Made by a program: the position numbers and the translations under genes
Shown: positions 31,801 through 34,800 of the stretch, piece by piece
Layout of the letters: each line of letters starts with the position of its first letter
How positions within the stretch are numbered: position 1 is the first letter of the stretch
From: Progne subis subis
Taxonomy: Eukaryota; Chordata; Aves; Passeriformes; Hirundinidae
Direction: 5' to 3'
NCBI GenBank assembly: GCA_022316685.1
Contig: JAKJHU010000186.1
Span: 620,001-684,000 of the forward strand
Length of the DNA: 64,000 nucleotides
The notes under the pieces: generated by a model
Told to the model about the DNA's origin: nothing
The model's input: only the letters and a program-made list of their open reading frames with translations
Database searches by the model: none

Positions 31801-34800
31801 TGAAGGGCAAATTGCTCAGAGTGAAATTACTGTTTCCTTCTCTGAGAATGCTGAAATGTTGAAATGTGAAGGGATGAATTCCTTACTTCCCGTGGCAGGC
31901 AGGAGCAGGAGCTCAGCCATGCCCAGGAAAACTGGGCTCCAGCACACCTAACAGAGACTGGGGAACACAAAATGCTCCTCCTTCCCCAGCTTTCTATACT
32001 GAGTGTGACGTCACTTGGTCTGGGATATCCCTGGATCAGGCAGGGTCAGCTGTCCTGGCTGTGTCCCCTCCCCACTCCCTGTTGGTGGGGCTGAATGAGA
32101 AGCGCTAAAAAAATCCATCTCTGTATCCTCAGCCCTGTGCTGAGGACAAATCCAGAGCACGCTCTATACAAGTGAAGAAAATGAGCTCTATCACAGCCAA
32201 AGCCAGCCCATGATGGGATTTCTGTGCCCTGTGTGAAGTCTTGTACGTTTCACAGGAGGGTTTAATGTTCTCCAAATATGAAGGTTTTATTGAGGCAAGG
32301 TGAATGCCAACCTGTCGTGGGAGCAACAAGAGACTGTGGATTGAGAAACACAAAAGTTCATTCAGCTTTAGAGAATTTTCTTAAAGGGGTCCTGCTGGCA
32401 GCTTTGTCCCCTACAAAACAGGTTGGAAGTAACCAAGAAGCCATTTCTCTTTCATTATGGAGAACTATCTAGAACCTGATTTAGAGCTGGTGTGACTTGC
32501 CAAGTCTTCTGTTGGGCTCCTCAGTCACCTTTAGGTGTTGAGGTTTCTGAGCTTTAGCAGTCAAATGAAAGCCATCAGTCTGGTAATTAATGGTGGAGGA
32601 TAACTTTATGCAGGCAGACCGGGGGTGTATTCCTTCTGCTTCACAAGAGGGGATGAGATTTCCTTAGGTGCTGCCACTCACTTGCACACTGGAGGCTTCT
32701 AAACAATCCCTTGTGCCTGTTGCAGAAGTGGGGAAGGTACCAAATGTAGTTCCAGGTGAAATTGTCCTAGGGATCTGATTGGCTTGTTGAGAAATCTGTG
32801 ACACCTTTATTTGGGTGTCCTTGTGACCTGATGTGATCCATTGCACTCGAGGCGCTGGACTGTTGCAGTAGCCACAGAAGGAAGGAGCGAGGCTCCATGA
32901 AGGCTGCTTTGGGATGAAGTGAAGTAGTGGCTGGACTGGTGGTTAGAGCATGGGAGATGGCAAAAACTCTTTTGCTCAAGGTGTTGATGGGAATTCAGCA
33001 CACAGGGCAGTGGGTCTGAGCATTGTGGCAGTGCATTGTCCTTTGTCTCCCTGCCCCACAAATAAGTAGCTCTTCTGGAAGTGTCGGATTAAAGTGCAGG
33101 TGTGTAGTGGACAGATCTGTTGGCTCCTCAGTGTTCTTTCCAAATGTTTTATCAGATTTTTAGCTAGAAAAATGTTGGATTATGTTTTTCCTTTTTCCCC
33201 TTCTGTTAGAGTCTTGTTCTGCAAGGCCAGCTGCTTTCCCATGTACCACTCCTTCCTTGCAGAAATGTTGTTAGAGAATGAAGAGGCAATAAATATTTTG
33301 GGGGGGTCTTTGGGATCAAAATATGTTGCATTGTCTTTGGTGTCTGACTGCATCAAAAGACTACATCCGTGTAGAAAAATATTAAAAATTATTAAACATG
33401 CAGCATTTTGTCCTTTAGGTTAAGCGCTACCAGTGCACCTTCGAGGGCTGTCCCCGCACCTACAGCACCGCTGGCAACCTGCGCACGCACCAGAAAACCC
33501 ACCGTGGGGAGTACACCTTTGTCTGCAACCAGGAGGGCTGTGGCAAGGCCTTCCTCACCTCCTACAGCCTCAAAATCCACGTCCGGGTGCACACCAAGGA
33601 GAAACCCTTCGAGTGCGACGTGCAGGGCTGTGAGAAGGCGTTCAACACACTGTACAGGTGAGGGGTGTTCAATGCTGTACAGGTGAGGGGTGTTCAATGC
33701 TGTACAGGTGAGGGGTGTTCAGCACTGTACAGGTGAGGGTGTGTTCAACACACTGTACAGGTGAGGGGTGTTCAGCACTGTACAGGTGAGGGTGTGCTCA
33801 GCACACTGTACAGGTGAGGGTGTGTTCAGCACACTGTACAGGTGAGGGGTGTTCAGCACTGTACAGGTGAGGGGGTGTTCAGCACTGTACAGGTGAGGGT
33901 GTGTTCAGCACTGTACAGGTGAGGGGTGTTCAGCACTGTACAGGTGAGGGTGTGTTCAACACACTGTACAGGTGAGGGTGTGTTCAACACACTGTACAGG
34001 TGAGGGGTGTTCAATGCTGTACAGGTGAGGGGTGTTCAATGCTGTACAGGTGAGGGGTGTTCAGCACTGTACAGGTGAGGGGTGTTCAGCACTGTACAGG
34101 TGAGGGTGTGTTCAGCACTGTACAGGTGAGGGGTGTTCAGCACTGTACAGGTGAGGGTGTGTTCAACACACTGTACAGGTGAGGGTGTGTTCAACACACT
34201 GTACAGGTGAGGGTGTGTTCAACACACTGTACAGGTGAGGGGTGTTCAATGCTGTACAGGTGAGGGGTGTTCAGCACTGTACAGGTGAGGGGTGTTCAGC
34301 ACTGTACAGGTGAGGGTGTGTTCAGCACTGTACAGGTGAGGGGTGTTCAGCACTGTACAGGTGAGGGTGTGCTCAGCACTGTACAGGTGAGGGTGTGCTC
34401 AGCACACTGTACAGGTGAGGGGTGTTCAGCACTGTACAGGTGAGGGTGTGTTCAACACACTGTACAGGTGAGGGGTGTTCAGCACTGTACAGGTGAGGGT
34501 GTGCTCAGCACACTGTACAGGTGAGGGTGTGCTCAGCACACTGTACAGGTGAGGGTGTGTTCAGCACTGTACAGGTGAGGGTGTGTTCAGCACTGTACAG
34601 GTGAGAAGGTATTCAGCATTACAGGTGGGAAGCCTTTGGCAAGTTTTCTTGCAGGTATGGCTGTTGCTGTTCTGCAAGTTGCCTCTACTTTGCGTTTGTG
34701 TTTGAATACAGTTGTTTTGCTTCCTCCATGTACAGGTATGAATATAAACCCCTTAAGTGTGGCAAAGCTGTCCAAAGCTGTCAATGCTATTCTGATAGCA

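Follow-up and report, generated by a model that had tools for sequence, protein, structure and literature searches.

A minisatellite of predicted splice donors across the exon-intron border of a zinc-finger gene, presumably MTF1, in Progne subis

The repeats of the human CBS gene are alternatively spliced. This VNTR, c.1444_1467+7(16_21), lies at exon 13/intron 13 and has a 31-bp unit made of 24 exon and 7 intron bases, as given in PMC2630376, and it is tabulated with raised homocysteine and lowered activity in a literature-mining paper (PMC1395315). In human IFI6 (6-16, G1P3), two downstream repeat units are stated to act as donors (PMC4526556, citing Turri et al. 1995), and the VNTR in intron 6 of hTERT is reported to be necessary for an alternative splicing event (PMC8150890). 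CBS and IFI6 show that arrays of this sort exist and can be spliced or associate with lower activity. Given the CBS and IFI6 precedents, the kind of repeat that we describe is therefore already known. Among the matches listed in our literature searches (titles and starts of abstracts, with few subscription journals), none dealt with an MTF1 or bird array that spans a donor, and the passages matched in seven further papers (PMC3549977, PMC4039745, PMC11506328, PMC3618361, PMC12771815, PMC5188458, PMC5741875) hold citations or general remarks only.

Here, we describe an array of this kind at a coding-exon donor of Progne subis, in a stretch of 64,000 nucleotides (the window; N count 0). Five coding exons from 28859 to 36370 (28859-29272, 33419-33657, 35015-35146, 35658-35731 and 36237-36370, the end of the last being assumed), when joined, give a single open frame of 331 codons, in which six C2H2 fingers can be read. 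We take the gene to be MTF1, judging by its protein sequence; C2H2 zinc fingers, with Pfam zf-C2H2 in exon 3, are the sole tool-based identity of its product, and the 331-codon product matched no family in NCBIfam and nothing in the PDB at 1e-60. The exon that matters here (33419..33657, + strand, 239 nt, coding) is the second of the five and is called exon 3, following the numbering of an earlier sequence-only reading of this DNA. Its open frame ([11 protein letters not shown]...FNTLYR) is in frame with the preceding and following exons, and it ends at a genuine donor, CTGTACAG|GTGAGG, which scores 11.24 bits against 8.18 and 8.77 bits for the two neighbouring MTF1 donors that were checked. 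Exon 4 (35015..35146, + strand), placed by in-frame exon joining, carries on finger 3. What remains of intron 3 after the array (34641..35014, + strand) closes with the acceptor TTTTTTAG|G, and the sequence-only reading had located this acceptor correctly, at 35014/35015.

That reading had also reported 37 copies of the exon 3 donor, and the array is real: CAGGTGAG, which marks CAG|GTGAG donors, occurs 37 times, beginning with the exon donor itself at 33657|33658, at successive steps of 25, 26 or 28 bp. Between 33658 and 34600 on the + strand, our unit table holds 36 complete units (25, 26 or 28 bp, 8 types), each with GTGAGGG at its start and CTGTACAG at its end. A degenerate 3' edge follows (34601..34640, + strand), composed of copy 37 (GTGAGAAGGTATTC...), whose donor is GTGAGA, and of the remnant of copy 38 at 34625 (GTGGGAAGCCTTTG), with the weaker CAG|GTGGGA. 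Tandem Repeats Finder (TRF) gives 33648-34627, period 25, 37.5 copies and 91% matches. With both strands of the window searched, CTGTACAGGTGAGG is present 36 times, always on the + strand and inside the array; it is found 0 times in 100 dinucleotide shuffles of the window and 18 times elsewhere in the same assembly, on 18 different contigs. Unit labels match best when shifted by 8 units (agreement 0.46), and the longest identical run is 5 units; block duplication within the array is only suggested, because a run of that length was reached in 71 of 1000 shuffles. Each unit runs into its donor as ...GTTCAACACACTGTACAG|GT or a shorter form of this; the units, by eye, have no long pyrimidine run of the sort looked for in a recursive splice site (ratchet).

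The run of donors begins at the true donor, and its unit spans the exon end and the intron start, which places it with repeats of the CBS and IFI6 kind. As in the account of CBS, an exon-end plus intron-start unit stands in tandem at a donor (16-21 copies in CBS), although gene, species and sequence differ and the CBS unit is always 31 bp, compared with 25, 26 and 28 bp in MTF1. Polymorphism and an association with lower activity are reported for CBS, whereas the MTF1 array is known from one assembly. IFI6, as cited, shares with MTF1 a minisatellite that supplies several splice donors; three mRNA species are reported there, in contrast to the 37 later-donor products of MTF1, all of which would stop at once. 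The hTERT VNTR is likewise an intronic minisatellite, but it is not described in that report as donor-built. To the known cases MTF1 adds its own gene, the count of donors predicted to be equal, a stop directly after the exon and an exonic unit 0.

This last feature bears on how the array arose. The sequence-only reading was right that the unit consists of exon tail and intron head, but not that the repeat starts at the donor, as it extends into the exon, back to 33630. The last 28 exon bases (33630..33657, + strand), GTGAGAAGGCGTTCAACACACTGTACAG, form unit 0, the presumed founder of the repeat; 24 of its 28 bases are identical to the 28-bp unit, including all of the final 18. Its head is GTGAGAAG, part of the zinc-finger codons Cys-Glu-Lys, and a similar head is kept by just two of the 38 intron copies, 37 and 38. 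Over the first nine bases, copy 37 agrees with the exonic head at 9/9 and copy 38 at 7/9; the remaining copies agree at 6/9 (35 of 36) or, in copy 9 with its extra G, at 7/9. Over the first fourteen bases, copy 37 has 12 matches and copy 38 has 10, several inner copies have 10 or 11, and a value of 10 is attained by 9 of the 1620 other 14-mers of the window that start with GTG. Since the fourteen-base match is shared by inner copies, it is the AAG of the head that carries the origin argument.

The match between unit 0 and the edge copies suggests a birth by slippage followed by expansion. At the real donor, the 28 bp that run up to the exon/intron border would have been duplicated, most likely because the exonic GTGAGAAG slipped against a GTGGGAAG of similar sequence with which the old intron began, one unit downstream; the repeat would then have expanded to 37 donors. 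The ancestral intron start in this scheme is one that we infer from a single edge copy.

What would follow if a later copy were used as the donor? Every copy had been put forward as a potential decoy for U1, and up to copy 36 this agrees with our predictions. By a weight matrix and by U1 duplex energy, all 36 of these donors, the true one included, score 11.24 bits and -11.6 kcal/mol, so that the units of this donor-spanning minisatellite hold donors predicted to be as strong as the true one; the 37th scores 10.83 bits and the remnant 38th 8.26 bits. On the + strand of the window, 44 sites are as good as the true donor by this matrix, 36 of them in the array and 8 outside it. We modelled the transcript by ending exon 3 at each of the 38 donors and joining it to exon 4, which lengthens the exon from 239 up to 1206 nt. 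Copy 1 reads through, and all 37 models that use copies 2-38 stop at codon 81 from the exon start, at an in-frame TGA right after the exon (33659..33661, + strand) that lies within finger 3, as had been claimed, and that would also be met on intron retention. Nonsense-mediated decay (NMD) of the later-donor products is expected because of the downstream junctions, and leaky splicing with NMD at this array is plausible by analogy.

The genuine donor is predicted to cost 9.0 kcal/mol to open, against a mean of 6.2 for the array and 4.9 for 60 random GT sites; it would therefore be harder to open, and copy 1 may not be the default choice. Across 18 contexts, the opening energy of the donor with the full array exceeded that with an array reduced to its 3'-edge copies 14 times, fell below it 3 times and equalled it once, the rise being at most 3.6 kcal/mol. 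The idea that the array masks the true donor was dropped, as this effect is too context-dependent.

The same genome holds at least two further arrays that begin exactly at coding-exon donors, as the MTF1 array does, and these two lie in one gene, presumably PUM1. The first, PUM1-A (contig C209, from about 61975; positions 776-1693 of the extracted stretch), has 37 copies of CAGGTGAG in a unit of 23-26 bp and starts at the donor of a coding exon that ends ...SSSAAQA, a later exon going on with AVAAAAASANGAAGG. Unlike the MTF1 unit, its unit does not clearly derive from the exon tail; a pyrimidine-rich stretch precedes the CAG, and each unit therefore resembles an acceptor and a donor together. 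The second, PUM1-B (contig C209, about 66595-67396; 2995-3796 of the extracted stretch), was met by chance, outside both of our genome-wide motif scans. It starts at a coding-exon donor two introns after PUM1-A and has 21 copies of a 38-bp unit, with unbroken spacing and a GT in every copy. Its unit consists of exon tail and intron head, the last 18 nt repeating the exon's last 18 with 2 changes, but its common donors (7.15 and 7.28 bits) are weaker than those of MTF1. Hence at least three donor-anchored arrays exist in this genome, and two of them, those of MTF1 and PUM1-B, have units that join an exon tail to an intron head.

Arrays of donor motifs are, more generally, frequent in this assembly (1.17 Gb, 2896 contigs), in which we scanned for CAGGTGAG and CAGGTGAGT, all counts being lower bounds. 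Three CAGGTGAG at short spacing were found in at least 399 + 280 (679) overlapping places, whereas the reversed pattern had 25 + 45 (70), and CAGGTGAGT gave at least 66 + 4 (70), in 14 arrays, against 0 + 4 (4). We viewed the sequence upstream of 20 distinct arrays, namely 8 among the CAGGTGAG matches listed and the 14 from CAGGTGAGT, 2 being common to both. Judged by eye and without vertebrate annotation, so that short or non-coding exons may be missed, 1 of the 20 (PUM1-A) stands clearly at a coding-exon donor, 5 are ambiguous (C3, C91, C1337, C2046 and C2564), and in 13 no upstream exon was seen. The idea that motif arrays in themselves prove exon seeding was rejected, most of those examined not being seen at exons. 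Read by eye, the CAGGTGAG arrays of C91 and C3 each follow a possible acceptor and a short stretch that may be an exon (36 nt in C91, 47 nt in C3), and could be further donor-anchored cases. The remaining CAGGTGAG array, on the reverse strand of C25, lies antisense just beside an exon that reads by eye as a signal peptide and a collagen-like start, presumably of a C1q-like protein.

Neither RNA folding nor the constancy of the donor gives a clear sign of selection on the MTF1 donor or array. The array folds strongly against 20 dinucleotide shuffles (z -5.98), but against tandem arrays of shuffled units z falls to -0.50 to -0.76, and 33-46 of 150 such arrays fold as well (4 unit types). Strong folding is therefore a by-product of repetition, and RNA structure as the function was rejected. 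The donor 9-mer is unchanged in 36 MTF1 units and in 36 PUM1-A units, and it is equalled by other parts of the unit: the 9-mers that change as little as the donor's, its own included, are 7 of 28 in MTF1, 4 of 26 in PUM1-A and 26 of 44 in C113, and in C91 the donor's own only. Across nine arrays, no 9-mer is less changed than the donor's in these four, while in the other five the number of less changed 9-mers is 1 (C3), 2 (C158), 12 (C25), 22 of 38 (PUM1-B) and 27 (C193). Eight of the nine arrays were given or found by the CAGGTGAG motif, which favours intact donors, and so we do not take this comparison as evidence of selection. As the donor is not alone in its constancy within the MTF1 unit, and the folding is not special, neither result argues clearly for selection.

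We propose, as the reading that is probably correct, that the MTF1 array is a minisatellite seeded by its donor, in which the first donor is used mostly and a minority of transcripts leak to NMD, the array being tolerated and not selected. The repeat and its anatomy, the match of unit 0 to the edge copies, the equal predicted strength of the donors and the stop codon are there to be seen. Most transcripts would use the first donor because it defines the 239-nt exon, and a minority would use a later copy and be removed by NMD; a low-level leak of this sort is probable by analogy. The array would then act as a mild, copy-number-dependent drag on MTF1 output, parallel to the association reported for CBS. 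In support of this reading are the intact six-finger frame, the PUM1 parallels in the same genome and the CBS and IFI6 precedents; counted against it are the PUM1-A unit, with its lack of a clear resemblance to the exon tail, the predicted harder opening of the genuine donor, and the invariance of the donor 9-mer, which is also expected under selection. Tolerance is, in our judgement, most likely.

Selection would be the key to a different reading, a rheostat maintained for its effect, in which the share of MTF1 transcripts that go to NMD or retain the intron depends on how many U1-competent decoys there are. The predicted U1 pairing, identical in 36 copies, the stop in 37 of 37 later-donor products and the invariant donor of MTF1 and PUM1-A are consistent with it, as are the reports that a cryptic donor near the true one leads to intron retention in VWF minigenes (PMC8706089) and that activity is reduced in association with the CBS repeat (PMC2630376, PMC1395315). 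The donor's invariance is, however, tied by other 9-mers in MTF1 and PUM1-A and surpassed by many in PUM1-B, and only one of the 20 other CAGGTGAG arrays examined stands clearly at an exon donor, and we regard a selected rheostat as decidedly unlikely. We would call unlikely, too, with slightly less reserve, the idea that the copies help splicing, extra U1 sites and G-runs (through U1/SRSF1 recruitment, or as enhancers) aiding recognition of exon 3 while the decoys stay uncut. GGG is denser in the array (57.4 per kb) than in intron 2 (20.0) or the window (25.3), and in the experiment summarised in PMC8724738 an added downstream 5' splice site raised U2/U2AF recruitment to roughly the extent that four enhancer repeats did. 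That site stood at the end of a transcript without a later acceptor, whereas the MTF1 array has an acceptor after it and its copies could compete; the genuine donor, moreover, already exceeds its two MTF1 neighbours in score. Intron retention by a cryptic donor (PMC8706089) or an enhancer-like donor effect (PMC8724738) could by analogy occur in MTF1.

Two further readings carry far less weight. An assembly can give the wrong length for a tandem array of about 1 kb, and the exact copy number at MTF1 may be off; the window is nevertheless free of N, the unit types are interspersed rather than one unit being repeated, and the frame is intact across the flanks, which makes an assembly artefact or a wrong copy number very improbable. 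The sequence-only reading had also proposed that the array protects the transcript from premature polyadenylation through U1 (telescripting). Predicted U1 sites are indeed dense on the sense strand, but a scan for AATAAA and ATTAAA found neither hexamer from 33658 to 36058, and the next, at 36059 and 36132, lie more than 1.4 kb beyond the array. The proposal is weakened because intron 3 holds neither hexamer, and we give it hardly any credence.

If copy number does affect MTF1, the array would be a fast-mutating control on the metal response. That a single genome holds three such arrays suggests that splice donors are able to give rise to minisatellites repeatedly, and MTF1 offers a plausible birth route for donor arrays. 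A bolder generalisation from the three arrays (presumed MTF1, and twice presumed PUM1) is that exon-seeded donor arrays form a class, with donors as birth hot spots of minisatellites and decoy number as a heritable, fast-changing NMD dial on essential regulatory genes; we offer this as speculation that is more likely wrong than right by a wide measure. In addition, 36 predicted donors of identical strength in a row, with a stop after the first, form a natural test of 5' splice site choice, for which exon size, order of synthesis and nearness to the acceptor are possible rules.

In the 264 kb around the window (351 N), TRF returned 64 rows, and the MTF1 array is the one with donors of at least 8 bits in at least 40% of its copies. 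With a cut-off of 5.5 bits and merged rows, 3 of 43 arrays in the same 264 kb qualify, of which only that of MTF1 lies at a recognised exon; the second of the three was inspected and no exon was recognised there. The third, within the window at 50560-50830, is a minisatellite of GTGGGACAGGG-like units of about 21-25 bp, with 12 sites of at least 5.5 bits for its 12.5 copies.
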